IMG/VR virus record: IMGVR_UViG_3300020463_000111
Location: 1-27,349 of that record
DNA length: 27,349 nt
Strand: one strand, 5' to 3'
From: a virus
Positions 1 to 18,871 of the stretch are shown here, piece by piece. The notes under the pieces are model-generated. The model saw only the letters and a list, made by a program, of their open reading frames with translations, was not told the origin of the DNA and searched no databases. The translations under genes and the position numbers were made by a program. How positions within the stretch are numbered: position 1 is the stretch's first letter; every line of letters begins with the position of its first letter.

Positions 1-17
1 AATGGTATCAACAAGGT

Positions 18-293: not shown

Positions 294-600
294 GTATAAA
301 CGTAGTAACATACTACAGTTAGCAGACAAACTAACATCATCAGATAGAGAAGTAGAACATGGTGATGCTAGTAAAAACTTTGAGATGGTAGCAGATTTGT
401 GGAGTACATACTTGGGGGTGGATATCTTCCCCCATGAAGTACCCATGATGATGGTATTGTACAAGATTGCTAGGACTACTGAGAATCCTACCAATGTAGA
501 TAACTATGTGGATACATGTGGCTATGGTGCATTGGCAGGAGAACAAGTTCCCACAATCAATGAGGTTAAAGAACCTAGATTTACTAGGAGGGTTAGATGA
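274..600 (+). CDS. DUF6378-family phage protein
   Basis: A 108-aa protein that matches, by eye, the DUF6378 pattern common in tailed phages: a helix with D-R-E, then a HGDASKNFE segment (around residue 30), then DLWSTYLG, an F-P-H-E-V segment followed by MMMVLYKIAR (near residues 56-66), and a closing NVDNYVDTCGYGALAGE helix. The order 'Gly-Asp, Asn-Phe, Trp-x-x-Tyr-Leu, Met-Met-x-x-x-Lys-Ile-Ala-Arg, Val-Asp-x-x-Gly-Tyr' is the family signature. DUF6378 has no settled function; the all-helical layout resembles MazG-like nucleotide pyrophosphohydrolases, but that is inference. I chose the ATG at 274 because GGAGGT at 264-269 sits four bases upstream; in-frame ATGs at 214 and 262 lie upstream of, or too close to, that site. 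It overlaps the previous gene by 20 bases and the polymerase start by four (ATGA). Confidence 0.8.
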   Translation: MSRKNAKYKRSNILQLADKLTSSDREVEHGDASKNFEMVADLWSTYLGVDIFPHEVPMMMVLYKIARTTENPTNVDNYVDTCGYGALAGEQVPTINEVKEPRFTRRVR

Positions 601-2471: not shown

Positions 2472-2713
2472 TAAACGAAGATGATTTGCCTAACGAATTT
2501 AAGGCACACAACGATAAGAAACAAAGAATACTTGAGATACTTAGTAAGGTATCTGATGCTGTAAAGGAGAACCCTACGGCAGAGGAACTACTTGTCATGG
2601 TAAAGTTAGATGGAGAGTATGTAAGGTTCTCTAGTATACTAGAAAACAGTACAGAAACTGTAGCTATACTTGAAATGTTGAAGTATGACATAATGAAGAG
2701 GATGTCTACATGA
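2468..2713 (+). CDS. small acidic hypothetical protein
   Basis: An 81-aa protein that I cannot assign to a family. It begins with an acidic segment (MINEDDLPNEF), appears mostly helical, and has no hydrophobic span or obvious metal-binding residues. It is real by context: the ATG overlaps the polymerase stop codon in an ATGA, GGAGAA at 2457-2462 lies five bases upstream, and its own end overlaps the start of the nuclease gene by four bases. Coding-strand codon use matches its neighbours. Its position between the polymerase and a Cas4-like nuclease suggests an accessory role in replication or recombination, but nothing in the sequence shows what that role is. Confidence 0.75.
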   Translation: MINEDDLPNEFKAHNDKKQRILEILSKVSDAVKENPTAEELLVMVKLDGEYVRFSSILENSTETVAILEMLKYDIMKRMST

Positions 2714-3360
2714 CGTTATCACATTCATTCTCATCTATTAAAATGTATGAGAACTGCCCTAAAAGATACTACCATCAGAGGGTAACTAAAGAAGTAAAGG
2801 ACACAGGTAGTGATGCCACTATCTATGGTGAACGAGTACACGAAGCACTTGAACATCGGCTAGATAAACAGGTGGCATTACCTACTGAGTCTGAAGCCTA
2901 TGAACCTCTATGTAAAAGCATAGAGGATATGGGTGGAACTTTACAGGTAGAGCAGAAGCTAACACTAACTGAAAACCTTACACCAACAACTTGGTGGGAG
3001 AGAGACGCATGGCTACGATCCATACTTGATGTCCTAATTGTGCTTGATGATAAGGCTATCGTTATGGATTGGAAGACAGGTAAACGTAGACCCGATTTCT
3101 CACAGTTAGAAATGTTTGCGTTGCAAGTATTCCAACACTTCCCAAGCGTAAAGAAAGTCCAGTCAACTTTTGTATGGCTGAAGGATATGGCACTAGACTC
3201 GCATACATATCGTAGAGTAGAAACGGATGACATGTGGGTAAAATTACTAAGCAAAACAGAACGTATAAACCAGTCACTTATAAATAATAAATGGCCACCA
3301 AAGCCTAGTGGTTTATGTAGGTTTTGCCCTGCAAAAAATATTTGTGAATATTCAACTTGA
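2710..3360 (+). CDS. PD-(D/E)XK nuclease, RecB/Cas4-like with Fe-S cysteines
   Basis: A 216-aa nuclease of the PDDEXK_1 (RecB/Cas4-like) group. Visible catalytic pattern: GERVH with H44, E81 in V-E-Q-K-L, D107 in S-I-L-D-V, D120-W-K122 as the core D-x-K, and Q132 in S-Q-L-E-M. One cysteine near the N-terminus (C16, in ENCPKRYY) and three near the C-terminus (C203, C206, C212, in CRFCPAKNIC) match the spacing that binds a 4Fe-4S cluster in Cas4 and AddB nucleases. The protein probably trims or degrades single-stranded or broken DNA ends during replication, recombination or host DNA breakdown; polarity cannot be read from sequence. It overlaps its upstream neighbour by four bases. It is not a CRISPR adaptation gene: no cas1, cas2 or array is present. 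Confidence 0.9.
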   Translation: MTLSHSFSSIKMYENCPKRYYHQRVTKEVKDTGSDATIYGERVHEALEHRLDKQVALPTESEAYEPLCKSIEDMGGTLQVEQKLTLTENLTPTTWWERDAWLRSILDVLIVLDDKAIVMDWKTGKRRPDFSQLEMFALQVFQHFPSVKKVQSTFVWLKDMALDSHTYRRVETDDMWVKLLSKTERINQSLINNKWPPKPSGLCRFCPAKNICEYST

Positions 3361-3384
3361 CATCTATGTAAAGATAATTATATT
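3357..3384 (+). promoter_or_regulatory. weak candidate promoter before VRR-NUC gene
   Basis: TTGACA at 3357-3362 is a perfect -35 hexamer and TATATT at 3379-3384 is a near -10, spaced 16 bases apart. The 24-base gap here is one of very few in the left arm, and the following ATG at 3385 has no Shine-Dalgarno. The difficulty is that a transcript from this promoter would start a few bases after the ATG, so it could not express the full next gene. It may instead drive the helicase and later genes, or be chance in an A/T-rich gap. Confidence 0.25.
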
Positions 3385-3684
3385 ATGAGTAATACTCCCG
3401 AGGGAAAAATTAAACGTTGGTTAGATAAGTCACTCAAAGAACTTAACGTTTGGTTTTACAGTCCACAGAGTGGGCCTTTCGGTAAAGCAGGTATACCCGA
3501 TAGGGTAGCCATAGTGAGGGGTAGATTTGTAGGTATAGAGTGCAAGGCTGATAAGAGTAAGAAGCCGACTGCACTGCAAACCAAAACGATGAAGGAGATA
3601 GAGATGCAAGGTGGCAAATGTTTTTTAGTTTACGATAAAGAAACTATACAAGAAGTTATTACTTATATTAAGGGCGGACAATGA
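3385..3684 (+). CDS. VRR-NUC domain nuclease
   Basis: A 99-aa single-domain protein of the VRR-NUC branch of PD-(D/E)XK nucleases, the phage form of the domain found in FAN1 and resembling Holliday junction resolvases. The signature is intact: an N-terminal T-P-E-G-K helix, then G-x-P-D-R (near residues 36-40), G-R-F-V-G and I-E-C-K (about residues 50-53) carrying the catalytic Glu and Lys, then T-x-L-Q just after residue 60. The substrate is probably a branched or flapped replication intermediate. The length is normal for stand-alone phage VRR-NUC proteins. The start is inferred from the family; there is no evident ribosome binding site before ATG 3385, unlike most genes here. Its TGA overlaps the helicase ATG by four bases, so the two are likely translated together. 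Confidence 0.9.
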   Translation: MSNTPEGKIKRWLDKSLKELNVWFYSPQSGPFGKAGIPDRVAIVRGRFVGIECKADKSKKPTALQTKTMKEIEMQGGKCFLVYDKETIQEVITYIKGGQ

Positions 3685-5231
3685 TTGTTATTGAACAAGC
3701 AAAGGCTCTTGCTATTAAGCCAAAGCATCCTAATCAGATATTAAAAACCATACCTACAGCTCGCATGCTAAAGTATGACGGAGCAGAACTCGTTGTAGCA
3801 CCACACAAACTAGACGAAGTTAAGGTACTACGGAACTTAGGGTTCGAAGCACCATCACCAATCTTACATTATTATAATTGGGAGGGTAGGTTCACACCCT
3901 ACGAACACCAACGTATGACTTCTGCTTTCCTTACTATGCACAGAAAAGCGTTGGTACTTAATGAGATAGGAACTGGTAAAACACAGTCAGCATTGTGGGC
4001 ATCAGATTATCTTATGGAGATAGGAGAGATTAAGAAGGTTCTAATTATATCACCACTGTCTACACTTGAGAGGGTGTGGGGTGATGGTATCTTTATGAAC
4101 TTCCCTAATCGTACATCAGTAACTTTGCATGGAACAAGTGCAAGGAGAAAGAAGCTACTCAAAGCAGAAGCAGACTTCTATATTATAAACCACGATGGTT
4201 TCAATATTATATCCGATGATGCTGTCAACATGTTTGACCTTGTTATTGTAGATGAAGCCGCCGTTCTTAGAAACCCATCGACAAACAGATTCAAGACGCT
4301 CAGGAAGTTTATGGACAAACACCCGAGAACTCGTTTGTGGTTGATGACAGGTACACCTACACCGAATGATCCCACCGATGCTTGGGCATTAGCAAAGCTA
4401 GTGGATAGTCCACACTGCACCAAAACATTCACTGCTTTCAAGGAAGCTGTAATGATGAAGATAGGTCAGTGGAAGTGGATACCAAGACCCGAATCAATAG
4501 AGATAGTTAAACATATTCTATACCCTGCTGTTAGATACACTAGGGAAGAATGCTTAGACCTACCCGATACAGTCTATCAAACAAGAAAGATAGACCTCAC
4601 TCCCGAACAAAAGAAACACTACTCAATAATGCTAAAGCATTTTGTAACTCAGTTGGAGGAAGAAGGAACAATCACTGCTGTCAATGAAGCCGTGAAGTTA
4701 CAGAAGCTTGTGCAGATAAGTTGTGGTGTAGTGTACGGAGACGATGGACGGCACATCGAAGTTGATTGTGCGCCAAGAGTCAAAGTTGTTAAGGAGATTA
4801 TAGAGGAAGTAGGAGGTAAGGTTATAGTTTTTGTTCCCCTTACAGGAACATTAAACATGTTGGAGAGAGAACTGTCAAAGACTTGGGATGTAGCAGTTGT
4901 TAATGGAGCAGTGTCAGCTTCAAAACGAAACATCATATTCCATAACTTTCAGAATGAAAAGAATCCACATGTACTAATTGCTCACCCTGCGACTATGGCA
5001 CATGGTCTAACTCTTACTGCCGCATCTACTGTGGTGTGGTATGGGCCAGTGACAAGCAACGAGCAATACATTCAAGCGAATGGTCGCATTGAAAGGATAG
5101 GTAAGAAACATGTCTCAAACGTCATACACATAGAGTCAACAGACTTAGAGTATAAGATGTACGAGAGATTAAAAAATAAACAAAAACTACAAGGTCTTTT
5201 ACTAGACCTTATACAGAAGGAAACGAGGTAA
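3681..5231 (+). CDS. SNF2-like superfamily II helicase/ATPase
   Basis: A 516-aa superfamily 2 motor of the SNF2-like type common in podoviruses. In order: FTPYEHQ at about residues 71-77, Walker A G-T-G-K100-T, motif Ia around LIISPLSTLERVW, Walker B D191-E-A-A (a DEAD-box variant), motif III M-T-G-T-P near 222-226, and in the second RecA lobe motif V around AHGLTLTAAS and motif VI Q465-A-N-G-R469-I-E-R472-I-G. It probably uses ATP to translocate on double-stranded DNA, remodelling forks or stripping bound proteins. Such genes often sit beside VRR-NUC genes in phages, and here the pair is translationally coupled (ATGA at 3681-3684), suggesting a joint role in processing branched DNA. No DnaB-type replicative helicase is present in the window; unwinding at the fork more likely falls to the 951-aa primase-helicase. 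Confidence 0.92.
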   Translation: MIVIEQAKALAIKPKHPNQILKTIPTARMLKYDGAELVVAPHKLDEVKVLRNLGFEAPSPILHYYNWEGRFTPYEHQRMTSAFLTMHRKALVLNEIGTGKTQSALWASDYLMEIGEIKKVLIISPLSTLERVWGDGIFMNFPNRTSVTLHGTSARRKKLLKAEADFYIINHDGFNIISDDAVNMFDLVIVDEAAVLRNPSTNRFKTLRKFMDKHPRTRLWLMTGTPTPNDPTDAWALAKLVDSPHCTKTFTAFKEAVMMKIGQWKWIPRPESIEIVKHILYPAVRYTREECLDLPDTVYQTRKIDLTPEQKKHYSIMLKHFVTQLEEEGTITAVNEAVKLQKLVQISCGVVYGDDGRHIEVDCAPRVKVVKEIIEEVGGKVIVFVPLTGTLNMLERELSKTWDVAVVNGAVSASKRNIIFHNFQNEKNPHVLIAHPATMAHGLTLTAASTVVWYGPVTSNEQYIQANGRIERIGKKHVSNVIHIESTDLEYKMYERLKNKQKLQGLLLDLIQKETR

Positions 5232-5233
5232 CT

Positions 5234-5641
5234 ATGGAACTAACTACAGATAAAGTTATTGCCACATACCTCAAGTTGAGAAGTCAGAAGGAAGCTATAG
5301 AGTCTGAGACCAAAGAGAAGGTCGCAGATATAAAAGCTAATCTTCTCAAACTTGAAGCGTGGCTAAAAGAAAAGATGGATGCGGATGGTGAAACTTCTAA
5401 GAAGACACCATTTGGTACAGCATTCATAACGACTACCGACTTTGCCCAAGTGGGAGATTGGGATGCAGTCTTAGGTTTTATTCAAAAGAATGAAGCATGG
5501 GATATGCTAGAGAAAAGAGTCAGTAAGACAGCAGTGCGTGGCTATATAGACCACAACAAAGCTGTTCCCGATGGTGTTAATTATGGCACACGAATAGATG
5601 TCAATGTTCGTAAGCCTGTTAATAAGGCAGACGATAAATGA
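5234..5641 (+). CDS. conserved phage protein with N-terminal coiled coil
   Basis: A 135-aa protein. The first roughly 55 residues form a charged helix typical of a coiled coil (LRSQKEAIESE, then KEKVADIKANLLKLE). A compact C-terminal part follows, with TPFGTAF, a DW at the start of a helix, and LEKRVSKTAVRGYI. I recall this layout from uncharacterised proteins beside SSB and recombination genes in many phages; a loose resemblance to Gam-type nuclease inhibitors is possible but unproven. It begins two bases after the helicase stop, with GAGG in the end of the helicase gene acting as ribosome binding site. Its stop overlaps the next gene by ATGA. It is probably a DNA-replication or recombination accessory protein. 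Confidence 0.75.
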   Translation: MELTTDKVIATYLKLRSQKEAIESETKEKVADIKANLLKLEAWLKEKMDADGETSKKTPFGTAFITTTDFAQVGDWDAVLGFIQKNEAWDMLEKRVSKTAVRGYIDHNKAVPDGVNYGTRIDVNVRKPVNKADDK

Positions 5642-6330
5642 TTGCACCGAAGATATCTATCAAAGGCTCACAGTTTCGTGCTGTCAGTGGTGACGAGGAG
5701 ACTGTACTGGATTACAGTATAGATGTTGTCATTGTCGGTGCGAATCCAAAGCTATCCAAGTCTTGGTATGCTGATGCTTGGTCTGAAGATAGCCAATCTT
5801 CTACTCCCGATTGCTACTCACTAGATGGTGTACATCCAAACAAGAACAGTCATGCCATGCAGAATGACATGTGTGTCTCTTGCCCACAGAACGCTTGGGG
5901 TTCTAGGACTACACCAACAGGTAACAAAGTTAAGGCTTGTGTCGATCAGAAACGATTGGCAGTTGTCTTAGCAGAGGGGCCCTTTAGTGAAGCATACTTA
6001 CTACAAGTTACTCCTGCGTCTTTGAAGAACTTGAATGCTTATCAAAAAGAATTGTCCATGCGTGGTATTGCACCCGAGATAGTAAGGACAAGGATAGAGT
6101 TTGATACACTCGCATCTTTCCCAAAGCTACGATTCAGCTTCCGTGGATTTAACGATGATGCAAATCAAACTCTTGTCGATGATCATTTGGGGACTAAGCA
6201 GACTAGGATTGTTACAGGAGAACTTGCTGTAGAAACTAAACAATCCAACCATTCATTAGACGATTTCGGTTTTGTCGAAGAGGATGGCTTTATATCAACT
6301 AACGAACTAGGAGGTTCAGACTATGAATAA
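5638..6330 (+). CDS. conserved phage protein with four-Cys zinc-like site
   Basis: A 230-aa protein sitting directly before the SSB gene and overlapping it by eight bases. Four cysteines (C59, C79, C82, C101, spaced C-x19-C-x2-C-x18-C) in the sequence DCYSLDG ... MCVSCPQNAWGS ... KACVDQ look like a zinc-binding unit. The middle part (LAVVL, then YLLQVTPASLKNLN) reads as beta strands, perhaps an OB-like fold. The C-terminal 40 residues are acidic, as in many ssDNA-binding proteins. I remember similar genes next to gp2.5-like SSB in marine podoviruses, where they are annotated only as hypothetical. A role as a second ssDNA-binding or recombination mediator protein would fit position, zinc site and acidic tail, but is inference. 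Confidence 0.75.
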   Translation: MIAPKISIKGSQFRAVSGDEETVLDYSIDVVIVGANPKLSKSWYADAWSEDSQSSTPDCYSLDGVHPNKNSHAMQNDMCVSCPQNAWGSRTTPTGNKVKACVDQKRLAVVLAEGPFSEAYLLQVTPASLKNLNAYQKELSMRGIAPEIVRTRIEFDTLASFPKLRFSFRGFNDDANQTLVDDHLGTKQTRIVTGELAVETKQSNHSLDDFGFVEEDGFISTNELGGSDYE

Positions 6331-7048
6331 AACTTTTACAACCGCTAAAGGGCTTGCGTACTACCCATATATCAGTGCGCCCGACACTAAGTTTGACGAG
6401 CAAGGACACTACAAAGTTAACCTTTGCTTATCAGAGGAAGATGCTCAACCAGTTATCGAACTCATAAAGCAAACTGTTGTTGAAGGTATTAAGGCTTTGA
6501 AGAAAGACAAGCCTAATATGGAAATCAAACAAGCACCGCTACCATTTAGTAAAGAACTAGATGAGGATGGTAATCCTACAGGTAACGTGATTGTTAAATT
6601 CAAATCCAAAGCCGCATACAAACCTGCTGTCTTTGATAGCAAAGGTAACATGATGACCAACTCTAACATCTATGGTGGGTCAGAACTAAAAGTAAACGGC
6701 TCATGTGCTTTCTTTCATACAGCTATGATTGGTGCAGGTGTATCAATCAGACTTAGAGCAGTACAAGTTATCCAATATGTAGAGGGTGCGAATGGTGCTA
6801 ATAAGTTTGGCTTTGATGAGGTAGAAGGATTCACCATAGAAGAAGATGTTTCTGTGAGTGAGACCCCTCCGGCAGCAGCTGCAGCGGAAGAACCAACACC
6901 TGCTCCTGCACCAAAGGTAGTGCAAGCTATCAAACCTGTGCAACAAGCTAAGCCTGTTGAAGAACCAAAGGCGGCAAAGACTGTCAGTGGTGCTGATGAC
7001 CTAGCCGCAGAGATCGCACAACTGGTAGGAGATGTGGACAATGGCTGA
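6323..7048 (+). CDS. ssb: T7 gp2.5-like single-stranded DNA-binding protein
   Basis: A 241-aa OB-fold ssDNA-binding protein. It tracks T7 gp2.5 closely in pattern: an opening F-T-T-A-K-G with Y-I-x-x-P-D, then G-H-Y-K-V-N-L-C-L, a helix rich in lysine, VKFKSKA, FDSKGN followed by IYGGSELKV, and a closing strand GAGVSIRLRAVQVIQ. These are the strands of the gp2.5 OB barrel. After residue 180 comes a low-complexity Ala/Pro/Glu linker (AAAAAEEPTPAPAPK) and a mildly acidic tail. The final residue is Gly rather than the aromatic residue that T7 gp2.5 uses to contact its polymerase. GGAGG at 6312-6316 sets the start, and the gene overlaps the previous one by eight bases. It coats single strands and coordinates polymerase and primase-helicase. 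Confidence 0.87.
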   Translation: MNKTFTTAKGLAYYPYISAPDTKFDEQGHYKVNLCLSEEDAQPVIELIKQTVVEGIKALKKDKPNMEIKQAPLPFSKELDEDGNPTGNVIVKFKSKAAYKPAVFDSKGNMMTNSNIYGGSELKVNGSCAFFHTAMIGAGVSIRLRAVQVIQYVEGANGANKFGFDEVEGFTIEEDVSVSETPPAAAAAEEPTPAPAPKVVQAIKPVQQAKPVEEPKAAKTVSGADDLAAEIAQLVGDVDNG

Positions 7049-7325
7049 TACACCACCTCTTGATTTCAAGAAAGTGGAAGCCTTACGGAAGCATATGCTT
7101 TTGACTACAAGTAATATGGCAGAACTTCTTGATGTATCTCGTATGACTTACTATGGTTGGGTTAGAGGTAATAGAATCCGAAAGAACAACGATAAGAAAG
7201 TACGGATTACACTCAAAGGATTGCTTGATATTATGACAGATGGGTGGCCTGCACCCGATGTCATAGCTATGGAACAAAAGTATAGATTCCAAAGGCTTCT
7301 TGAGGTTATGGACAAAACAGGGTAG
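7041..7325 (+). CDS. small helix-turn-helix DNA-binding protein
   Basis: A 94-aa protein with one clear helix-turn-helix near residues 18-43: TTSNMAELLDV as helix 2 and SRMTYYGWVRG as the recognition helix, followed by a basic stretch (RIRKNNDKK). This is the Xre-like arrangement. I chose the ATG at 7041 rather than 7032: AGGAG at 7027-7031 is nine bases before 7041 but immediately abuts 7032. The gene overlaps the SSB end by eight bases and is followed by a 49-base gap with a hairpin and a TATAAT box. It is therefore well placed to act on that gap and control the primase-helicase gene or the switch out of early expression; this is inference from position. It is the only candidate transcription regulator in the window. 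Confidence 0.8.
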   Translation: MADTPPLDFKKVEALRKHMLLTTSNMAELLDVSRMTYYGWVRGNRIRKNNDKKVRITLKGLLDIMTDGWPAPDVIAMEQKYRFQRLLEVMDKTG

Positions 7326-7331
7326 TATAAT
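7326..7331 (+). promoter_or_regulatory. candidate -10 box (TATAAT) before primase gene
   Basis: A perfect TATAAT directly follows the stop codon of the helix-turn-helix gene. No good -35 lies at the usual distance (TTGAGG at 7300-7305 would need a 20-base spacer), so it would rely on an activator or be weak. A start point about seven bases downstream would fall inside the hairpin listed next. Confidence 0.3.
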
Positions 7332-7358
7332 AGGGGGAGGGTTTCTACTCTCCCCTAT
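7330..7358 (+). other. strong hairpin in leader of primase-helicase gene
   Basis: ATA-G-GGGGAG (7330-7339) pairs with CTCCCCTAT (7350-7358) with one bulged G at 7333. The stem continues with G7340-T7349 and G7341-C7348, closing a six-base loop (TTTCTA). The stem is 11 pairs, G/C-rich in its core. No T-run follows, so it is not a classical intrinsic terminator. The Shine-Dalgarno (AGGTAGG, 7364-7370) and ATG 7375 lie just downstream. It could be a processing site, an attenuator or a translational element. Confidence 0.55.
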
Positions 7359-7374
7359 AACATAGGTAGGTAAC

Positions 7375-10230
7375 ATGAACACGCTAGAGTTTCTCAAGCG
7401 AGTCCTACCGATAGAAGGGTTTTATGTAACCACTGTTATCAACCAAGATGGTAGGAAACAGGGTTTCTTTGAGTCGGTAGAAGAACTTGCACATACATGT
7501 GAAAGATTGGATAGCACAGGTAACAACACTTATTTTGCTATATCTTCTTTCAGAGTTAAAGGTAATAGAAAGCAAGACAACGTTAGGGCTACTAAGGTTG
7601 TAGCTATAGATGTGGATTGTGGTGAAGGAAAGCCATACGCATCTTGGAAAGAAGGACTACAAGAACTAGGTAAATTTGTACACACAATGAGTTTACCCAA
7701 ACCGATGATAGTATATTCGGGTAATGGGTTGCATGTGTATTGGGTACTAACAGAAGAATTAGAACCACAAGACTGGAAGCCACTAGCCAATGCTATGAAG
7801 CAAGCGGCTTTGGATAAAGAGTTTAAGATTGATGCAGGACTTACAGCTAACAGTGCGTTAGTGCTAAGACCTATTGGTACACACAATCCTAAGAATGGTA
7901 ACGAGGTAAAACTTTTAGTAGACGCAGAACCAGTCGAAGTTTCTAGTCTGAAAGAATCTCTATCTTATTTCTATCGTGATGTGCCCGGGGCGCAAGAAGA
8001 TCACACTCGTGACAACACGTTGCTAGAGAATCTTGTGTCTAAACAAGAGTTTCCACTTGCTGTTGGTTCAATAGTTAAATCTAAATGTAAGCAGATTGAC
8101 TGGGCTGTAGACAATCAAGACAAGGTTGATGAACCATTATGGTATGACCTAATAGGTGTAGCCGCTTTCTGTAATGATGCAGAGAAGACAGCAGTAGAGT
8201 GGAGTCAGAGGCATCCGAAGTTTGATTACCATGCTACTGTAAGTAAACTCAACCACTGGAAAGATTCAGCTAGTGGCCCAACAACTTGTGCTAAGTTTGA
8301 TATCGACAGACCGAACGGGTGTAGAGGATGTGTTTACAAAGGTAAGATAGGATCACCTGCAAGACTAGGTGTTCAATACCAAGAAGCACCACTATCAGCA
8401 GAAGCACCCGATGCTCAAGCTAATCAGATACCAATACCAAAACCATTTAAGAGAACACAAGATGGTATAAAAGTTACCATAGATGATACAGATATAGATG
8501 TCTGTAAGTTTGATATATACCCTGTCAGCTATGGACTAGATGAATCACTAGGGTATGAGATAGTTAGATACCACTGGAATAGACCTCACATGGGGTGGCA
8601 AAACCTTGTGCTACGACAGGCATATCTAACAGAAGGCAATCGTGAGTTCGCTACAGCTATAGCGGATCAAGGGATTGTATTATATAACAAAAGACAAACG
8701 GAGTATTTTCAACTTATGTTAAGAACATATATGGATGAGTTGAGGCAAATCCGTACTATGACTAACTTATATTCTACTATGGGTTGGAAAGAGAAGAATA
8801 CGGCATTTGTCTTAGGCGATACACTTCTAAAGCGAACAGCAGAGGGAGTGACAGAAGAATCAATCAGTCTTGCATCGGGCATACAGAAGCAAGGTGCAGA
8901 CTTATATACCAGTAAAGGTGATGCAAACCAGTGGATAAACCTAACATCAGTGTTAGAAAAAGCAGGTTTGAAATCACATATGTTTACTTTAGGTGTTGGC
9001 TTTTCAGCACCACTGTATAACTTCACAGGACTCAAGGGATTAACTGTATCCCTATATGGGCCAACTGGTGGTGGTAAAACATTAGCACAATACTGGGCGC
9101 AATCTATCTACGGCAACCCCGACAAGCTACACTTTGCGGCTAAGTATACACAGAACAGCTTGTTCTCAAGACTTGGTACATACGCTAACCTGCCGCTAAC
9201 AATAGACGAAGTGACTATGATGCAGGATAAAGAGGTTGGTGACTTCTGTTATTGGGTATCACAGGGTAGAGATAAGGCTAGGTTAAATCGTAATGCCGAA
9301 GAAAGAGATGCAAAGACATGGGCAACACCTGTCATAGTATCTACCAACAAGTCTCTACAAAGTAAGCTGATAGCGTCTGGTCTGGATACAGATGCACAGA
9401 TGGCTCGTCTACTAGAACTTACTGTGCCGTCTGCACCTTTGTTTACTCGAGGCTCTGAAGCAGGTCGTAAAATATATGAAGCTGTCCACGCTCATTATGG
9501 GTCAGTAGGAAAACAATATATCATAAACTTGTTGTCAATGGGTGAAGAAGGTATCCAGTCTGCGATAGCTGAAGCATCAGATAACTTCCATAAGAAGTAT
9601 AAAGCTAAGTTTAGTGGTGAAGAAAGATACTGGGAACAGTCAATCATACTAGCAGACTTAGGTATGAAACTAGCTACTGAGTGGGGATTGATTAAGTTTG
9701 ATTACACACAAGCTACCGAGTGGGTACTAGCACAGATAGGTGCTATCCGTAGAACAGTACAAGAGAACCAAGTTGATTGCTTTGATCTTGTTGCTGAGTA
9801 TATGGCTGACTGTGCTGATACTTCTGTAACCATCATGCACACTGTAGGGCAGAAACCACAGCCCGACTTCTCTAGAATACCAAGAGGTGACATCCGAATC
9901 AGATTAGATGTGTTCAGAAAATCTGCATCAGAAGTATTTGATAAGGGTAGTATGATGATTGATAGGACTCACTTTAGAAAGTGGTTGTCTGTACGCGGCG
10001 CTGATTACAAGTCATTCAAACAGGAACTTGCTGTGGAGAATGCGTTAGCTACACCTCGATCAGAGAAAGCATCACTAGGTAAAGACACACCAATCAAACT
10101 AGCACAAAGCTATGTCATAGGATTTAATCTAACACACCCAAGATTCCAAAGCCTGCTTGAGAATGCAGATACGGCGGCTGACGATATGGCATATGGACAG
10201 CTACAGGTAGTGAAAGATAAAGACGTTTAA
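7375..10230 (+). CDS. AEP-type primase fused to DUF927/SF3-like helicase
   Basis: A 951-aa primase-helicase. The N-terminal third is an archaeo-eukaryotic primase: catalytic D79-V-D81 in AIDVDCG, the S-G-N-G-L-H120 motif, and R165 in LVLRPIGTHNPKNG. A central part holds a possible zinc site (C305, C316, C319 in the pattern TC ... CRGC, perhaps with C238 or C266). The C-terminal half, from about residue 380, is the DUF927-type ATPase: Walker A G562-P-T-G-G-G-K568-T569, Walker B L-T-I-D611-E612, and a sensor-like STN near 656-658. It should both prime and unwind at the fork, replacing separate DnaG and DnaB proteins; neither is seen here. AGGTAGG at 7364-7370 gives the ribosome binding site. 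The stop at 10228-10230 is followed by an overlapping open frame lacking a normal start (see 10214-10429), so the product may be longer by frameshifting. Confidence 0.9.
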   Translation: MNTLEFLKRVLPIEGFYVTTVINQDGRKQGFFESVEELAHTCERLDSTGNNTYFAISSFRVKGNRKQDNVRATKVVAIDVDCGEGKPYASWKEGLQELGKFVHTMSLPKPMIVYSGNGLHVYWVLTEELEPQDWKPLANAMKQAALDKEFKIDAGLTANSALVLRPIGTHNPKNGNEVKLLVDAEPVEVSSLKESLSYFYRDVPGAQEDHTRDNTLLENLVSKQEFPLAVGSIVKSKCKQIDWAVDNQDKVDEPLWYDLIGVAAFCNDAEKTAVEWSQRHPKFDYHATVSKLNHWKDSASGPTTCAKFDIDRPNGCRGCVYKGKIGSPARLGVQYQEAPLSAEAPDAQANQIPIPKPFKRTQDGIKVTIDDTDIDVCKFDIYPVSYGLDESLGYEIVRYHWNRPHMGWQNLVLRQAYLTEGNREFATAIADQGIVLYNKRQTEYFQLMLRTYMDELRQIRTMTNLYSTMGWKEKNTAFVLGDTLLKRTAEGVTEESISLASGIQKQGADLYTSKGDANQWINLTSVLEKAGLKSHMFTLGVGFSAPLYNFTGLKGLTVSLYGPTGGGKTLAQYWAQSIYGNPDKLHFAAKYTQNSLFSRLGTYANLPLTIDEVTMMQDKEVGDFCYWVSQGRDKARLNRNAEERDAKTWATPVIVSTNKSLQSKLIASGLDTDAQMARLLELTVPSAPLFTRGSEAGRKIYEAVHAHYGSVGKQYIINLLSMGEEGIQSAIAEASDNFHKKYKAKFSGEERYWEQSIILADLGMKLATEWGLIKFDYTQATEWVLAQIGAIRRTVQENQVDCFDLVAEYMADCADTSVTIMHTVGQKPQPDFSRIPRGDIRIRLDVFRKSASEVFDKGSMMIDRTHFRKWLSVRGADYKSFKQELAVENALATPRSEKASLGKDTPIKLAQSYVIGFNLTHPRFQSLLENADTAADDMAYGQLQVVKDKDV

Positions 10231-10429
10231 AAAGATAAGACTACCCAATGGTAGATACCTTTATCTTAGGTTAGATACTCCGCCATACAAGTTTGCACAC
10301 CCTAAAACTATAGAGCGTATAAACAAGAAATTGCTTAGCGCAGGTAGAGTTTGGGAGAAAAGACAGGAGTATCTGAAAAAACAAGCCTCTGAGAAGCCCG
10401 TACAGAGGGGTAAAGACCCTTCTAGGTAG
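10214..10429 (+). CDS. short basic ORF without canonical start; possible +1 frameshift extension
   Basis: An open frame of 71 codons runs from just after a TGA (10211-10213) to TAG 10427-10429. It contains no ATG or GTG, and its only TTG is deep inside at 10331. The translation looks like a true protein: a strand-like K-K-I-R-L-P-N-G-R-Y-L-Y-L-R-L segment, an HPKTIERINKKLL helix, then a highly charged tail ending GKDPSR. It starts inside the primase-helicase gene and lies in its +1 frame. Two readings fit: a start at a non-standard codon (ATA 10217 or ACG 10223), or a +1 shift at GTT-TAA (10225-10230) that adds about 65 residues to the primase-helicase. A lost start codon or sequencing error is also possible. 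The frame fills what would otherwise be a roughly 210-base empty stretch in a genome with almost no gaps. Confidence 0.55.
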   Translation, partial: KIKTFKKIRLPNGRYLYLRLDTPPYKFAHPKTIERINKKLLSAGRVWEKRQEYLKKQASEKPVQRGKDPSR

Positions 10430-10439
10430 TCTAGCTACC
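10425..10439. terminator. candidate bidirectional terminator at convergent junction
   Basis: GGTAG (10425-10429) and CTACC (10435-10439) form a perfect five-pair stem with loop TCTAG, exactly where the rightward and leftward transcription units meet (stops at 10429 and 10442). An alternative longer pairing is GGGGTA (10407-10412) with TACCCC (10436-10441). Neither strand has a T-run after the stem, so the call rests on location and symmetry. Confidence 0.35.
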
Positions 10440-10441
10440 CC

Positions 10442-13400
10442 CTAATTTGCCTCTACTCCGTAAATATCTAGCAACTCATTGATGGTTGGACGTATTGTAG
10501 TTGGTGCAAACTTCCTATATCTGTTCACACTATTCTTCTTAGCAGACTTCAATGACTTGTTTGCAGAACCAACGAAGTCTTTAAAGAAAAACTCTGTGCC
10601 TTTGGTATCTCTGTTGTGTTCCTTTACCAAGTCTAAGATTCTACGAACCTCATCTCTATCACCCTCTAGCTTAGCTTTGATATATGCTTGCTTGTAGTGA
10701 GCCTTCATATCTTGGACATAGGCTTGAGTCTGCTTTGTCATTCTAATAACATCATTCTGCACCATGACTTGATATGGATAGAAGCCCATCATTCTAAATA
10801 CAGAAACCGTAGTACCCACTTCATTATCTAAGACTGTACCATCTGCCCTAGTAATCTTTCCATCATGTAGATATGTCATACCATCAACCAAACCTCTTAC
10901 AGCAGAAGATGGTACGTCTCTAAGTATATCTGTAAATCGTGTTGTTCCGTCTTTGAGGCCCACAGTCTCTGCACCATACCTGAGAAGTTGTGTTCCTGTG
11001 CCAAACAACCCTGCCATCCCTGAGTAGACAGGCCCAAAGAAGTTCTCTGCTTCTCTCCAATACTCCCCAGCATGACTTTTTGCTTTGAAAGCACCAGTCA
11101 ATGGAATCAAATCACCAAACCCAAGTCGTGTAGATATTGTTGCTCCTGTCCACTGGTCAAGAAATCCTCTCATAAATGTCGGTGATGCACCGGGGATGAA
11201 CGCATCAACAAGCCGTGCAGTTTCTTCCTCTACGCTCTTCATCTTGATACCAAAAGTTTGAGCAAGAGTATCAATCAAGTCCATCAAGTCGTCAGCAAAT
11301 GGTAGTCCTTTCATACCCGACATAATGAACAGCATAGACAACATAGCTATTCTGCCTTTCTTATCCATACCTTTCATTAGCTGAACACTGATGATGACGA
11401 ACTGTTTATACATGAAAATATATTGTGCTAAGTTTCCTCTAGCCATCTCGGGTCTGTTATACATAGCGTATTCACCCTGTGATGTATTCACTGCCTTCGT
11501 AGCAAACTCTTTCGCATTCATCTCAACCTCTGCCCTTTCGTCTACCGGAAGGTTAGAGAGATTAGTTCCAAAACGATTGGATGATAGTATTCTTTCTCGT
11601 TCCATCCTGTAGGCAGCTAGGAAGGTAGTACGTCTGTTAAGTTGTTCTGTGTAAGAAAACGCAGACATCCATGTTTTGATCAAACCATTATAGTTGTTAC
11701 TAGCTCTACCACCTCTTGATGTACCAACGAGTGCGTTAAACTGTGCAGCTTGCAGCACACCTGCGGCTGTAGCATCTAGCATAGCATCAGCTTCATCTGG
11801 AGATAGACCGTGTTGACGCTGTAATCTATCAGCTTCTGCCTGTAATGCAGGGTCTCTTGTAGGGTTAGCTACCTGAACCATGTATTCATAGGTGGATAAC
11901 CTAAAATTACCAGCGTTATAAACTGCTCGGGTCATAGCTCCAGCAGATTTACCCAGTCCAAAGCCACCACCATAACCTCTGTTTGGATTATAACTACCAA
12001 GATAAGGTATGGCATGAGTAACCATAGACATCATGTTTACTGCAGCAGTAGCAATAGAACCACCAAGCTGTAGTAGTACAGCATACAGCTTGAACCTAGA
12101 ACCAACCTCGCCAGACAGAATGTCTTCTGTTGAGTCTTGGATACTTGCTGCATCTGCATAGAACTGTAGTAGTTTTTTAGCTTCTTCTCTGGAATCTTCA
12201 CCACGACCTTCGTTAGGTATCTCGTTACCATTTCTGTCTTTTGCTTTGACAGGAGCATTTTGGTCAGCAGAATGACGATATTGATATGCGTAAGCATCGT
12301 ATGCTTTTCTAGCTGCTTCTCTTTGTGCTTCTGTACCTCGTAGCGTAGCTGCTTCTAAAGCTTGTAGTTTATCAGGATCACCTCTGAACTTGTTGTTGTC
12401 TGCCATAATATCGTTCAGCTGCCATGAGTAAGTAATCTTACCTGCTACATGAGCTTGTGTTTCTAAATGTTCTGCGACACTTCTAATGACATCTTTATCC
12501 CAACCGGGGTTACCTGATCTCTGCAAACTTCTTCGTGCAGTAGATTGAACACTGGTTAGAGATGTAATAATACGTTGTCGTTCTTGAGGTGTAAGACCAA
12601 TATCTAAACGCTGAACTACACTCATAAACTCTGTAAGATTCATAGAGTTAGTAAGTGGTTGTGATTGTCTAGCTTTTGCTACCTGCGCTCTAAACTGTAT
12701 GTTTCTAGTTTGCCCAGACTTATCTCTCATCTGGTAGGTTATAGGGTCAGCACCCTCTGCTACAATATCTTGTAGTCCTTCTGCTATTCTTTGTGCATCA
12801 GACTCAGCTTCAGTTTGAAAGAATGGTATTGCTCCAGCATAAGTTTCTTCTAGCTCAACAGCTTTACCTGTGTTTGCATCATATGCCTGCATACGAACTT
12901 GCCACTTACCTCGTCTGGTAAATGGTACATACCCAGTTACAAGTGTACGTCTTGCATTGAAGTCTGCATTAACAGCTCTTTGATCTAACAAAAACAAGTT
13001 TTGTATAGCGTTAGTTACATTGTACGCTGTACTTTCAGTAAACTGTAATGCTCTTAATCTTGGGATAGAGTCAATAATATCTCTATATCTATCAGTCTGA
13101 AACTCTGCAGTGTTATCTCTACCGTTTTGCCAGTCTGTTACTTTTGCATCGTTATGGAAAGCTCTGTTAATAGCTGCTAAAAATGTTCCAGCTTTATCAA
13201 TAGACTCTTGGATTGGCCCATCTAATGTAGCGCCTTCCATATAAAGATTAGAATATTCTTCTATAATCCTTCTAAATATTTGTACATCTTCTCCACTAGG
13301 TAGTGCGCCACCTTCACCTGTAAATGTTCTAAAGTTTTCTAGTGCTTGTTCTCTTTGTCCTTTGACTGCATCCATATTAGCCTGAAGGACATCAACAGCT

Positions 13401-16400
13401 GCTTGGTTTACAGCTGCTCTGTTCTCAGAATAGATACGCCATGTATTATCAGTAACAGTAAATTCTTGGAATTTAGTTTCACCATTACTTAATTCAACAG
13501 TGAACCCTCGTTCAAACTCTTCTCTGGATACTGTACCCATTTCTTCTAGCTGTCTACGAACGTCAGCATTTACTTGTGGATCACCTGAATCCATACCTTG
13601 CATAAGAACTTCTAGGTCTCGTATATTCTGATCTGAGTTTTGAGTGGCTTTTAATTGTGCACCATAGGCAAGCATCTCTCCTGCTTGCTCAAGCTCAAGT
13701 TTAGTTGGCCCTTTACTGCTAAGACCCATCCAATCTGGTGTATGTGTAAATGCTGTAAGTCTTTCATACTCAGACATCATACGTCTTGTCTTACCAGACT
13801 GAAGCTGGAAGATTTTAAAGATCATAGATAGACCTTCACTACGCTGTGCTTTATTATCTAGCGTCTGTACCGCTTCAGCCATCTCACCAAAGAAACGACT
13901 TAGCGATTTACCTTTAGCTCTTGGTAATTTCCTTACTAGCTCAGATACACTATCAAATCCACCGAACTTACCTGATCTACGGTTAAGGGCATCGGCTTGG
14001 AAAAAGTTAGTAGCATGGTCAGCTCGTACATCTTCGATTTGGAATCGACCGTACTCACTCTCTGACTGTAGTTGTTTTAGGTTAAGAGCTAACTGTTGCG
14101 CGCCTACAACACCTCTGCCACCTGTGCGTAAGTTCTTACGAGATTGACTTAAAAAGTACCGGGTGAGATCAGGATCGCCAACCGCTAACCAATCACCTAA
14201 CCCTATAACATCTAGCACAGACTGTATTACATTCTTGAGTCTATCTATCATACTGATGTCAAGCGCAGCTGCTCGTTCAGCAAGCACTTCTTCAACAGCT
14301 TCTAGTATGTTCATGTCAGGATTAGCTTGTTTTATAATATCAGCCGCAGCCCGTACATGACCATCAGTTCTATATATTTCACGGAAGATAGAGTTCATTC
14401 TTTCACGAGGCATGAAGGCACGGAAACCAAAGTGGCCTAATGCTTCGTGAGCAACAGTCAACCTGATCTGCTCTTTAGTCCGTGCATAGTCACTAAAGAT
14501 AATAACTTGGTCACCAACAGAATAACCAACAGCTTCTACTGTATCAAAATCACCAAGTGGTCTACCAGCTTGAGCACGTTTATAAAGCTCAGGGTTAGTC
14601 CGAGCTAGTTCCTGTACGTTAGCTACGATAGTAACAGTTGGTTTTACTTTTAGTTTTTTAAGAACTTGTTTGACAATAAGGTCTATATCACCCCTACCCA
14701 AAGCTTCTGTAGGTTTGCCATCTGCCCTACGAAAATTACCCTCTTCATTTTTAGAGTCCATCTCTTTCATAATCTCAGCGGTAGGTTGCAGCCTGTTTAC
14801 TCTTGCGTTTTCACGTTGAGTACGTCTACCTTTTTTAAGTAGCCGTTGGCCTTCTGCCTGCTGTGAGTTGATTTCAGTCTGTGTTTCGGGTGTTGGGTCA
14901 GGTACAATACGACCATTAAACAACCTTTTAGTTTTTAGATTACCCCTATTATCAAAGAAATCTTTGAGTGAGTAACCATTGGCCATCAGATAGTTTCTAT
15001 CTGAGTTAGCAAAATAAGTTTGTATACGATTGATCTCACGGCTACCGGTAGACTCACCGCCCTGCTGAGTTCTTTGCTCTACAGAAGCTCTATCAGACGT
15101 AAGTTCAACCACAGGATTATATCCACTGAAAGATTTAAACTCGTATCTCTCTAAGTGTGAGTTAAGGATATCCTCTAGCAACCTAGAGTTTTCTAGCTGT
15201 ATCTGTGCTGTTTTTTCAGCAGCAACTTTTCTACCTTTTTTACCTAAAGCTTCTTCATATGCTCTTCTAAAAGCTTCAAAGTCAATCTTATCTCCAGCTG
15301 CCTGTTGTCTTCGTAGAGCATTAAGTACCCTATCAGCTGTGTCCTGTCCTAATACTTCACCTTGAGTTTCTTGTGATATAGCTTGGTTAATAGCTTCTTG
15401 CTGTGGTGATGTGTACCACGCTGGCATACTAGTAAGAGCTACTTGAACTTCAGCAAGCAGTTGGTTTTTAGTGGCATACTCTAACCAAGGTTTGTTCCTA
15501 CCCTTGTTAGAACCTCTAGTAAATGTACCTTCTAACGGTTGTGCGTTAGCTTGAGTTATAAACGCATCATGTAATGCTTTACGCTGTTGTGGCGTAAACT
15601 CAGTTTTATTTAGATACTCAATAGCACTAGCCTGAATGCCCTGCTTAGTAAGGTTTGAGTCAACTTCAAAAAATGCAAAACCCATAAGCTGATGTGCATA
15701 CGACCATGCTTCACCATGCTTAGTAAAATCAGTAGTTGTATCAAACTTAGCTTTGAACTCATTGAGTTCTTCTTGTGCAGATAGCTTTAAGCTATAGTAA
15801 TTATCGTCATATATCTTTTGTGCAATATCACCATTCACAGCATTGCCAGCTACTAGCTGACCCCACTGTTCTCTAGCTTGTTCAGGCAATCTATCCAAAG
15901 GTACAGTACCAGCAGGTGCTAAACTGTTCCATGCTTCTATAGGTGTCTGACCTGTAACATCAACAAAGACTGGGCTTATACGAGAGTCTGATTCCTGAGC
16001 TTGTTTTTGACGAGCTTCTTGGCGAGCTTCCCGAATTGTTCGTTGCTCTTCTTGTTGATTCGCTGTTGTCTGGCGTACTGACGCTTTTCTGAGGCGCTCT
16101 TTGCCCCTACCCTCTCGGGTAGTTTGTTCGCGGAGGTTGTCTCTTCCTCGAACTTCGCCGCTAGGCTGGGTTTGTTGGCGTACAGCCACTTCATCTGTGC
16201 TTTGCTCTTGAACGGCATCTGTCCTCCTTTGTTGTGGTCTATCAAAACTTGCTACAATACCTTCCATTTCTGCAACAATATTATCTTGTTCTGCTACATC
16301 ATTATTATCTATAGCAACTTGAAAATCATCTACATACTCTTGAATGTTTTCTCTAGGTATGTTGTTAGCCACCATCTGGTTGACAAGTGGTGTTATCTCA

Positions 16401-18871
16401 GGAGTAGGTGCTTGATCAAATGGTAATACCATCTGACCTTCTTGCTCTAGCTGAGCAGCAGTTGGTTCTGCAGCAACAGCCGCTTGACCTCTTCGTAGTG
16501 CTTCTCGTCTTGCACTAAATTTACGTTTGGGTGCAGCCATTCCCGGCAGACTTAATTGTGTAGGTACTCGTTGAGGTATAGCAACCTGTGCTTGTTCACG
16601 AGCTTTACGCTCTTCAATTTCTTGAGTGAGCCTATTATTCTCTGCAAGTATCTGTTCTACTCTAGCATTTTCTAGTTGAGCCACTTGCTCATTTAATCTT
16701 TGCTGTTCGGCTAAATCAAACTCTTGTTGTCTTTGCGCTCGCTCAGCTTCTTCTGCTCTAATTCTTTGTTGTTCAGCAAGTTCAAGCTGTTGTTCCTGTA
16801 TTCTATTATTAGCAGCCTGTAGAAGTTGTTGTCCTAAAGCTGTCTCTTGTGCTGCCGGGATAGTTTGAGCTGTAGCCTGTACATCTTGAAGCGTTGTATC
16901 AAGCGGAAGTGTTTGTTGTCCTGCTGCTTCTAGCTCAGCTTGTGTAGGCTCTGGTGTAACCACATCTTCACGCACATCCGTGCCAGCTTGTGCACCCGTT
17001 GGAAACGTTACTTCTTGTACCCCTGATGGTGTAAGCATAACACGCTCGTTTGCTTGAGCACTTTGCCCCCTTACAGCAAAAGATGGTCTCTCTGATAATT
17101 CATTTAAATCACGAGCAGTAACTGGCCCTTCTGGTGGAAATAAAATTCCTTGTTGGCCTTCTTCCTGACCGGGCAAAACTGGTTGATTAGCTTGAACTAC
17201 AGTATCTAGCGGCTCCCCTGCTCTAGTACCTTGTTCGCCTGCAACAAAGTCAGGAGGCCCAGCCACTCTACTAACCGCTGGAGTAGGAGCAGGGAGAGCC
17301 GCAGCACCACCTGCACCCGGTGGTAATTGACCCTGCGGAGGAGTCTCAGGGCCTAATATATCACCTTCAAGGGGAGGAGCAGGTAGTAATTTTTGATCCG
17401 CTTGTGGATCGTCTTTGTCTAGTATGTTTGTTGGTTCACCTAGATTACCTTTTTTAAGGCTAGCAAAACCACCTAGTGGGCCACCAATAGCGAAGCCCGC
17501 TGCAAAAGAATTGATTAATCGTCTAGTAGTTTCTTCATCACCAAATGATTGGTCTGTACCGTACAGTAGTAAAGACTCTTGACCAAGTTCTGTAAGACCT
17601 TCAAGTGTACCACCGACACCTAGACCTTTACCTACTCGTTTAGCGACACCGCCTGATTTAAGAACATTTGGCCCAAGCCCAAAGATACGACCTGCCAAGA
17701 AAAATTCTGGTAATACTTCCATAGCTGCATATGGTATAGCTAATCCTGCTGCTGTACCTCTATCACCTACACCTGTATCTCTTACCTCACCATAGATATC
17801 AGCTACACCCATACCATAAGAACTGATTATAGATGCGCCTGCTGCACCACCTGCAATAGCTTGTCCTCTACCTATCTGACCAGCTTTAAGTGCGCCTCTT
17901 AGTGTTGAATCTGATAAAAACTGTGCGCCCGGAGTAGCAACTCCTGACCTACCTACATAAAAAGCTGCAGGGTTTTTAGCTTGAGCCGCAGCTGTTAAAC
18001 CTGACATCTCACGAAGAAGTTTTTTCTCACCTTTGTTAAGAGCTTGACCCTTCATATATTTTTTAGCAGCCGCTGCTACAGCCAGTTTTACTTTTTCTTT
18101 ACCCAGCATAGCATATAAAGCACCACCTGCGGCAGTAAATGGATTAGCACCACCACCTGCAACTGCACCTGCACCTGCACCAAGTAAAGCAAAACCGATA
18201 GATTCTAGTAAGTTTGGCCCTTGCTGTGCAAAGTTAGCAACAAACCAGTCAATAGGGCCACCTTTAAAATACTCACCATCTTCACTCTTAAACTCTCGTT
18301 GAAACGGTTGGTTGTAGTATAATTCTTTAACTGCGTTATCTACTAAGTCTTGTCCAAACTCTTCAAACCCTAAAAACTGAGCACCTCTACCAGCAAGAAG
18401 TTTTAGGTTATCCCCACCAATTTCAAAGTTTCTTGCAAACAAAGTACCCAAACTAGGGTCTTCAATATTATTCATAAATGTTTTGTAGGAATCAGGAGAT
18501 ACAAACTGCCAGTCACCATCGGGCTGCTTAGCCCTAGGTCGGTCTAGGTATCCTCTCGCTTCTGCATCTAGTGCTGATTGTTTGTCATCAGCATTATACA
18601 ATGCACCATTAACAAACATTTCGTTTCTTGACGGGCTAAACAACACAAGTGGCCCAGTTTCTGGTGGTGTATCAAATCCACCCAGTAAAGCACTCTCTAA
18701 TGCTTTGTCTTCTGCCTGTTGTTGTATAAGCTGATCTGCAAGTCCTGCTTTTAAACCTTGAAGTCCTGACCCCATCTCAACAGGATCGAATGGGTTTCTA
18801 GCTCCGGGCGCAGTAGTAGCATCATAAAACGAGCTGTCAAATGCTTGTAGCCCTGCTTTTTTTGGAGCCAT
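10442..18871 (-). CDS. giant virion ejection protein (T7 gp16-like position) with HExxGH domain
   Basis: A 2809-aa protein, last of the structural operon and in the slot of T7 internal core protein gp16, so probably ejected into the host with DNA. Layout: a globular N-terminus; hydrophobic Ala/Gly-rich segments at roughly 220-470; a long Pro/Gln/Glu linker (about 490-980) with a coiled coil near 680-770; a metallopeptidase-like segment with HEALGHFG (H1475, E1476, H1480) and EEVLAE (1527-1532); and helical regions to the end with a hydrophobic stretch around YIFMYKQFVIISVQLMKGM. The HExxGH pattern has one residue more than classical HExxH; I recall this form in large phage 'polyvalent' proteins. 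No transglycosylase motif is seen; that lies in the upstream 817-aa protein. AAGGA six to eight bases before ATG 18871 supports the start, two bases after the preceding stop. An 80-codon gene is nested within the linker. Confidence 0.85.
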   Translation of the reverse strand: MAPKKAGLQAFDSSFYDATTAPGARNPFDPVEMGSGLQGLKAGLADQLIQQQAEDKALESALLGGFDTPPETGPLVLFSPSRNEMFVNGALYNADDKQSALDAEARGYLDRPRAKQPDGDWQFVSPDSYKTFMNNIEDPSLGTLFARNFEIGGDNLKLLAGRGAQFLGFEEFGQDLVDNAVKELYYNQPFQREFKSEDGEYFKGGPIDWFVANFAQQGPNLLESIGFALLGAGAGAVAGGGANPFTAAGGALYAMLGKEKVKLAVAAAAKKYMKGQALNKGEKKLLREMSGLTAAAQAKNPAAFYVGRSGVATPGAQFLSDSTLRGALKAGQIGRGQAIAGGAAGASIISSYGMGVADIYGEVRDTGVGDRGTAAGLAIPYAAMEVLPEFFLAGRIFGLGPNVLKSGGVAKRVGKGLGVGGTLEGLTELGQESLLLYGTDQSFGDEETTRRLINSFAAGFAIGGPLGGFASLKKGNLGEPTNILDKDDPQADQKLLPAPPLEGDILGPETPPQGQLPPGAGGAAALPAPTPAVSRVAGPPDFVAGEQGTRAGEPLDTVVQANQPVLPGQEEGQQGILFPPEGPVTARDLNELSERPSFAVRGQSAQANERVMLTPSGVQEVTFPTGAQAGTDVREDVVTPEPTQAELEAAGQQTLPLDTTLQDVQATAQTIPAAQETALGQQLLQAANNRIQEQQLELAEQQRIRAEEAERAQRQQEFDLAEQQRLNEQVAQLENARVEQILAENNRLTQEIEERKAREQAQVAIPQRVPTQLSLPGMAAPKRKFSARREALRRGQAAVAAEPTAAQLEQEGQMVLPFDQAPTPEITPLVNQMVANNIPRENIQEYVDDFQVAIDNNDVAEQDNIVAEMEGIVASFDRPQQRRTDAVQEQSTDEVAVRQQTQPSGEVRGRDNLREQTTREGRGKERLRKASVRQTTANQQEEQRTIREARQEARQKQAQESDSRISPVFVDVTGQTPIEAWNSLAPAGTVPLDRLPEQAREQWGQLVAGNAVNGDIAQKIYDDNYYSLKLSAQEELNEFKAKFDTTTDFTKHGEAWSYAHQLMGFAFFEVDSNLTKQGIQASAIEYLNKTEFTPQQRKALHDAFITQANAQPLEGTFTRGSNKGRNKPWLEYATKNQLLAEVQVALTSMPAWYTSPQQEAINQAISQETQGEVLGQDTADRVLNALRRQQAAGDKIDFEAFRRAYEEALGKKGRKVAAEKTAQIQLENSRLLEDILNSHLERYEFKSFSGYNPVVELTSDRASVEQRTQQGGESTGSREINRIQTYFANSDRNYLMANGYSLKDFFDNRGNLKTKRLFNGRIVPDPTPETQTEINSQQAEGQRLLKKGRRTQRENARVNRLQPTAEIMKEMDSKNEEGNFRRADGKPTEALGRGDIDLIVKQVLKKLKVKPTVTIVANVQELARTNPELYKRAQAGRPLGDFDTVEAVGYSVGDQVIIFSDYARTKEQIRLTVAHEALGHFGFRAFMPRERMNSIFREIYRTDGHVRAAADIIKQANPDMNILEAVEEVLAERAAALDISMIDRLKNVIQSVLDVIGLGDWLAVGDPDLTRYFLSQSRKNLRTGGRGVVGAQQLALNLKQLQSESEYGRFQIEDVRADHATNFFQADALNRRSGKFGGFDSVSELVRKLPRAKGKSLSRFFGEMAEAVQTLDNKAQRSEGLSMIFKIFQLQSGKTRRMMSEYERLTAFTHTPDWMGLSSKGPTKLELEQAGEMLAYGAQLKATQNSDQNIRDLEVLMQGMDSGDPQVNADVRRQLEEMGTVSREEFERGFTVELSNGETKFQEFTVTDNTWRIYSENRAAVNQAAVDVLQANMDAVKGQREQALENFRTFTGEGGALPSGEDVQIFRRIIEEYSNLYMEGATLDGPIQESIDKAGTFLAAINRAFHNDAKVTDWQNGRDNTAEFQTDRYRDIIDSIPRLRALQFTESTAYNVTNAIQNLFLLDQRAVNADFNARRTLVTGYVPFTRRGKWQVRMQAYDANTGKAVELEETYAGAIPFFQTEAESDAQRIAEGLQDIVAEGADPITYQMRDKSGQTRNIQFRAQVAKARQSQPLTNSMNLTEFMSVVQRLDIGLTPQERQRIITSLTSVQSTARRSLQRSGNPGWDKDVIRSVAEHLETQAHVAGKITYSWQLNDIMADNNKFRGDPDKLQALEAATLRGTEAQREAARKAYDAYAYQYRHSADQNAPVKAKDRNGNEIPNEGRGEDSREEAKKLLQFYADAASIQDSTEDILSGEVGSRFKLYAVLLQLGGSIATAAVNMMSMVTHAIPYLGSYNPNRGYGGGFGLGKSAGAMTRAVYNAGNFRLSTYEYMVQVANPTRDPALQAEADRLQRQHGLSPDEADAMLDATAAGVLQAAQFNALVGTSRGGRASNNYNGLIKTWMSAFSYTEQLNRRTTFLAAYRMERERILSSNRFGTNLSNLPVDERAEVEMNAKEFATKAVNTSQGEYAMYNRPEMARGNLAQYIFMYKQFVIISVQLMKGMDKKGRIAMLSMLFIMSGMKGLPFADDLMDLIDTLAQTFGIKMKSVEEETARLVDAFIPGASPTFMRGFLDQWTGATISTRLGFGDLIPLTGAFKAKSHAGEYWREAENFFGPVYSGMAGLFGTGTQLLRYGAETVGLKDGTTRFTDILRDVPSSAVRGLVDGMTYLHDGKITRADGTVLDNEVGTTVSVFRMMGFYPYQVMVQNDVIRMTKQTQAYVQDMKAHYKQAYIKAKLEGDRDEVRRILDLVKEHNRDTKGTEFFFKDFVGSANKSLKSAKKNSVNRYRKFAPTTIRPTINELLDIYGVEAN
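15976..16218 (-). CDS. nested gene: small phage protein of the MPFKSKAQ family
   Basis: An 80-codon gene lying entirely inside the 2809-aa gene, same strand, different frame. It begins MPFKSKAQMKWLYANKPSL and continues with KFEEET and KLPERV, then a basic helix. This opening (K-S-x-A-Q-x-x-x-L/M-x-A-N-x-P-x-x-A, then an E-x-x-T and L-P-x-x) is a widespread small phage protein family that I recognise from memory; its function is unknown, but it is usually found among phage structural genes. An excellent Shine-Dalgarno (AAAGGAGG) lies four bases before the ATG. An upstream in-frame ATG at 16245 precedes that site and is not preferred. The overlapped giant frame here encodes only a disordered-looking Arg/Gln/Glu linker (residues about 885-966). 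About 42 of the first 58 codons end in G or C, against an A/T-leaning genome, though the host frame's R/Q/E-rich content could partly cause this. Confidence 0.78.
   Translation of the reverse strand: MPFKSKAQMKWLYANKPSLAAKFEEETTSANKLPERVGAKSASEKRQYARQQRINKKSNEQFGKLAKKLVKNKLRNQTLV
16223..16230 (-). promoter_or_regulatory. ribosome binding site of the nested gene
   Basis: On the minus strand this reads AAAGGAGG, then ACAG, then the ATG at 16218-16216. It is one of the strongest Shine-Dalgarno matches in the right arm, though it lies in the middle of another open reading frame. This decides the nested start at 16218 rather than 16245. Confidence 0.75.

Follow-up and report, generated by a model that had tools for sequence, protein, structure and literature searches.

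A nested gene is usually regarded as a singular relic that double constraint holds fixed. The Rz/Rz1 spanins of phage lambda are a familiar case, in which a complete phage gene lies in the +1 frame of another phage gene and has its own start; we know of no exchange of unrelated occupants in this pair. The diversity of spanins has been described (PMC6139136), and overlapping genes in general show an excess of phase 1 (PMC2542354). A second type of nesting is represented by the ShiLan-type out-of-frame HNH endonucleases found inside phage methylase genes (PMC11855218). Such an insert is stop-free in the host frame and holds a complete gene in another frame, is patchily present at one site among close relatives, and encodes a homing nuclease without a detectable Shine-Dalgarno (SD) sequence.

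The window analyzed in this study (the whole stretch of 27,349 nucleotides of IMG/VR virus record IMGVR_UViG_3300020463_000111) carries an 80-codon frame within a gene for a 2809-aa protein. It resembles Rz/Rz1 in its full +1 nesting and its own start; the spanins, however, are two partner proteins of one machine, unlike the slot in the giant gene. Two properties of the ShiLan type are also seen here, namely a stop-free host frame combined with a complete gene in the other frame, and occupation of one site in some close relatives but not in others (loci L118 and L161 compared with L119). In contrast to the ShiLan type, the slot is occupied by small basic non-nuclease proteins with an SD, has been retained for long, and accepts two unrelated families; searches of Pfam and PHROGs gave no nuclease family match for either the MPFKS or the MPLKKGSS proteins. 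What is new is a slot that is equipped with an SD, has long been retained and accepts unrelated, interchangeable occupants that are not nucleases, while out-of-frame HNH inserts and Rz1 nesting were already known.

The nested frame and its host gene

The relevant features of the window are as follows.

10442..18871, minus strand: giant host gene, 2809 aa, with a C-terminal region that matches phrog_11358
15976..16218, minus strand: nested small gene of the MPFKS family, 80 aa plus stop, ATG at 16218, recognized by homology, conservation and selection
16223..16230, minus strand: SD of the nested gene, AAAGGAGG, inside the giant reading frame
15976..16218, minus strand: the overlap read in the giant frame, residues 885-966, a Gln/Arg/Glu/Thr-rich low-complexity linker

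The giant protein belongs to the DarB-like / PLxRFG giant protein superfamily, with residues 2264-2756 matching phrog_11358 (E=1.4e-46). A virion or ejection role, and hence the label "ejection protein" used in the preliminary description, is plausible. Residues 1475-1480 (window 14432-14449, minus strand) read HEALGH, a zinc-metallopeptidase-like HExxH motif at a place where no Pfam domain is called.

The 80-codon frame is +1 relative to the giant gene and lies entirely within it. Translation of positions 15976-16218 (minus strand) gives MPFKSKAQMKWLYANKPSLAAKFEEETTSANKLPERVGAKSASEKRQYARQQRINKKSNEQFGKLAKKLVKNKLRNQTLV followed by a stop, with the N-terminus MPFKSKAQMKWLYANKP, and the order at the start is SD AAAGGAGG (16230-16223), ACAG, ATG. 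Translation thus bore out the preliminary description, which had reported a complete frame with AAAGGAGG four bases 5' of its ATG and a host frame that encodes only low-complexity linker at this place.

A profile search of PHROGs matched the nested product to phrog_1375 (E 2e-4), with weaker matches to phrog_16759 and phrog_5320; membership of phrog_1375 is indicated by both the profile match and the N-terminal motif MPFKSxAQ, which extends to MPFKSxAQ..W..A..P in the family and the nested gene alike. M1, P2, S5, Q8, P17 and P34 are invariant across 60 aligned members. MPFKS relatives, nested or free-standing, are present in many IMG/VR contigs, which confirmed the earlier attribution to a widespread small phage family; in the wider record set the gene occurs as a single copy per record where present. 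Many relatives in phrog_1375 are free-standing, whereas the gene described here lies in the +1 frame of a giant gene and has an extended C-terminus. A tblastn search of cultured phages with the consensus, which is nearly blind, gave one match. Free-standing MPFKS-type genes, apparently unannotated, lie between annotated genes in the records of cyanophages P-RSP2 (L012) and S-CBS2 (L014). With so few alignment columns, the family tree does not reveal how often nesting arose, and a host search among bacterial genomes gave no match.

Conservation and selection in the overlap

Giant homologues that span the nested site were compared in 30 IMG/VR loci (35-94% aa identity). An MPFKS homologue was nested at the site, always +1, in 27 of them; L118 and L141 carry a different small gene (MPLKKGSS) and L119 carries none. 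In giant homologues, 27 nested starts were tested and each has an SD motif, compared with 61 of 2222 (2.7%) other +1 ATGs. The start of the nested frame (ATG or GTG), conserved together with the SD, is the exact start of the family homology.

In eight pairs, substitutions counted by giant codon position were distributed 124/82/59 in the overlap and 716/496/1092 in the flanks (p=6e-14), so that in the overlap the peak shifts to the third codon position of the small gene. Changes silent in the small frame and altering the giant one outnumbered the reverse by 124 to 40. Counted against expected mutations, dN/dS is ∼0.35 in the small frame and ∼1.3 in the giant frame, the latter being a rough pairwise count and not a codon-model fit. 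Judged from these substitutions, the small frame is under purifying selection, while the giant frame in the overlap seems to be free of detectable protein-level constraint (dN/dS ∼1.3); given the two values, the giant protein seems to keep merely an open linker at this site. The comparison of dN/dS in both frames that had been proposed earlier therefore places the constraint on the small frame. The preliminary description had also named findings that would speak against the gene (no homologues outside the locus, stops in relatives, constraint on the giant frame only); instead, the frame has homologues at other loci, relatives keep it open and the constraint is on the small frame. As expected of a nested gene, the frame is complete from start to stop, lies in another frame of the same strand, and is conserved and selected.

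The length of the nested frame alone is not beyond chance, since, when the giant gene is shuffled among synonymous codons, 25% of the shuffles contain an ATG-frame of at least 80 codons, and it could on this count be an untranslated open frame that arose in a stop-poor Gln/Arg/Glu linker. Family homology, conservation of the SD and start, and the codon-position signal nevertheless place it far beyond chance and, with the gene swaps described below, refute a chance origin at the sequence level, leaving it a negligible probability. Programmed frameshifting from the giant frame, which is on the same strand and would reach the +1 frame, would give a fusion instead of a separate protein. We consider this very improbable, as the SD and the ATG or GTG are conserved where family homology begins and in-frame stops are found 6-123 bases upstream of the nested start in every homologue checked; because of these stops, the nested product would be a separate protein. 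Another +1 frame of the giant gene (86 aa, 12037-12297) was dismissed as a chance frame, being interrupted by stops in relatives.

Other host genes and exchange at the slot

MPFKS genes are also nested +1 in giants with the same C-terminal superfamily (L034, L038, L048, L060, L071 and L088) and in a second giant family (L010, L083 and Flavobacterium elemo phage MT497078). In MT497078, the out-of-frame gene lies within an annotated 3667-aa structural protein (CDS 3-11006; L011:3583-3711). Matches to MPFKS were obtained by tblastn in 68 Flavobacterium phage records, and in the elemo phage records examined the annotation is one structural protein across the nested site; the three elemo genome stretches compared are identical, and this comparison is therefore uninformative on selection. 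At 13 further loci (including L026, L040, L059, L065, L073 and L074), the gene is nested +1 near the N-terminus of a ∼400-aa protein that occupies the scaffold position, between portal and capsid; substitutions shift in the same way here (p=1e-5), but an SD is lacking. On this evidence, at least three kinds of gene serve as hosts of a nested MPFKS gene.

In L076 and L055, a second-family giant is followed, after 7-10 bases, by an MPFKS gene. The stretches examined of cultured superfamily giants from F116, 8P, Y7, Vibrio 1F273_PE002 and Microcystis Mel-JY34 contain no nested MPFKS gene. In L022/L023, a call of a nested gene was discarded because the long frame is GC-rich and probably spurious. 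The giants of L060 (7050-7307), L094 (6942-7202) and L077 (frame 6513-6827) contain a second nested +1 frame that is conserved (CLPGWEQYQSKEEQQKQ... type); in L060 and L094 it is 85-86 aa long and preceded by a GGAG-type SD.

The MPLKKGSS family, which matches phrog_2423 (E 1e-7), is unrelated to MPFKS in profile comparison, and the two were never found together in one of the records examined. Nesting, always +1, is seen at seven MPLKKGSS loci, of which two (L189 and L190) have a host gene from a further giant family. The slot holds an MPLKKGSS gene in L118 and L161 and no nested gene in L119. L118 and L119 are 93% identical on both sides of the slot, and this identity breaks off at the nested ATG and returns immediately after the stop; L161 and L119 show the same pattern. 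L145 (MPFKS) and L160 (MPLKKGSS) have a common SD leader, GGAGAC.CCAAGTGCC, followed by unrelated genes, with similarity returning after the stop. The MPLKKGSS genes of L118 and L158 share ∼93% DNA identity (152/162 bases), compared to ∼55% in their flanks. All swap partners are metagenome contigs, and the closeness of the L118, L119 and L161 flanks argues against misassembly. As both families are absent from L119, an incomplete contig, the nested gene may be dispensable. These comparisons indicate that the slot is exchangeable, containing an MPFKS gene in most cases, an unrelated MPLKKGSS gene in some, or nothing.

Origin, role and significance of the nested gene

The 80-aa frame is very probably a genuine gene, nested +1 in an exchangeable slot of the giant protein's disordered linker. 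Ribosomes on the giant mRNA would also initiate internally at the nested SD and ATG, yielding a small basic helical protein as a separate product, and the giant protein would merely tolerate the linker at the nested site. In the swaps seen among relatives, the breakpoints are at or close to the nested start and stop. A wider reading, which we find quite possible although short of probable, is that giant genes carry dedicated nested slots, two in some cases (L060, L094 and L077), and that these are always-+1 dual-frame cassettes that recombine at their own start and stop and in this way pass from one phage to another and even into unrelated host genes, carrying small assembly or ejection proteins that can replace one another.

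Two origins had been proposed earlier, fusion of two genes through a free-standing small gene and invasion of the giant gene. Invasion is favoured by the collinear flanks and the breaks of identity at the nested ends, while fusion found no support: no split halves of the giant protein were seen in relatives, and in the related L076 the small gene stands behind an unsplit giant. In free-standing members the +1 frame is open in 3/36 and 0/33, and the other frame in 9/36 and 5/33; since +1 is so seldom open in them, the uniform +1 nesting looks unlike random capture, and inheritance and exchange of a ready dual-frame cassette is more likely. The same uniformity, against the free-standing bias to the other frame, would suit ancestral overprinting, in which extension of the upstream frame or fusion absorbed a small gene that once stood free behind a head gene, with vertical inheritance thereafter, as would the MPFKS genes just behind the giants of L076 and L055. 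We nonetheless regard this course as rather unlikely, because the swap and empty-slot pairs point to exchange after nesting, no relative with split halves was seen, and the same-superfamily giants of F116, 8P and Y7 lack the nested gene in the stretches examined. Less likely still are selfish passengers, moron-like or homing-like, that insert in tolerant linkers of long late genes without benefit to the virion. Such passengers would fit the breakpoints, which fall where the genes begin and end, the greater likeness of a cassette than of its flanks, the empty slot of L119, the dissimilar occupants and the precedent set by out-of-frame HNH homing genes within a phage methylase (PMC11855218); on the other side, the products are basic proteins of 50-90 aa without a nuclease family match, the giant clade has retained the gene, as the sole copy in the record, through deep divergence, and free-standing members are located in head gene clusters.

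Concerning its role, the basic product of the exchangeable slot is predicted by AlphaFold to form helices at residues 6-15, 17-26 and 42-75 (mean pLDDT 86.5). Searches of the PDB by sequence and by fold gave no convincing solved-structure match, and a viral fold library returned only uncharacterised small phage proteins. Among the neighbours of free-standing members are genes for portal, head-tail adaptor, terminase and major head proteins, and a portal gene lies directly upstream of MPLKKGSS in two of the four cases scanned (L173 and L231), the upstream gene having no assignment in the other two. In T7, gp6.7 and gp7.3 are small virion proteins of 88 and 99 aa at the portal, core and tail, and the N-terminus of gp7.3 is mostly positively charged (PMC11784390); their genes are free-standing, and they serve here as a role model, with no sequence homology claimed. 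Since free-standing members are often near portal, terminase or head genes, and the hosts of nested ones are giant genes of the virion type or genes in the scaffold position, we tentatively suggest, from gene neighbourhood, charge and analogy, that the product may act at the portal as a small helper in head assembly or in the core and ejection, in the manner of gp6.7 or gp7.3.

The link to portal-side genes and to giant genes of the virion type thereby offers a handle on the function of the widespread MPFKS family. Such genes escape gene callers in which overlaps are forbidden, as exemplified by the elemo phage annotation. At this site the position of the nested gene is kept, unrelated families can replace one another in it, and the host frame tolerates them; overlap is thus not an evolutionary dead end.
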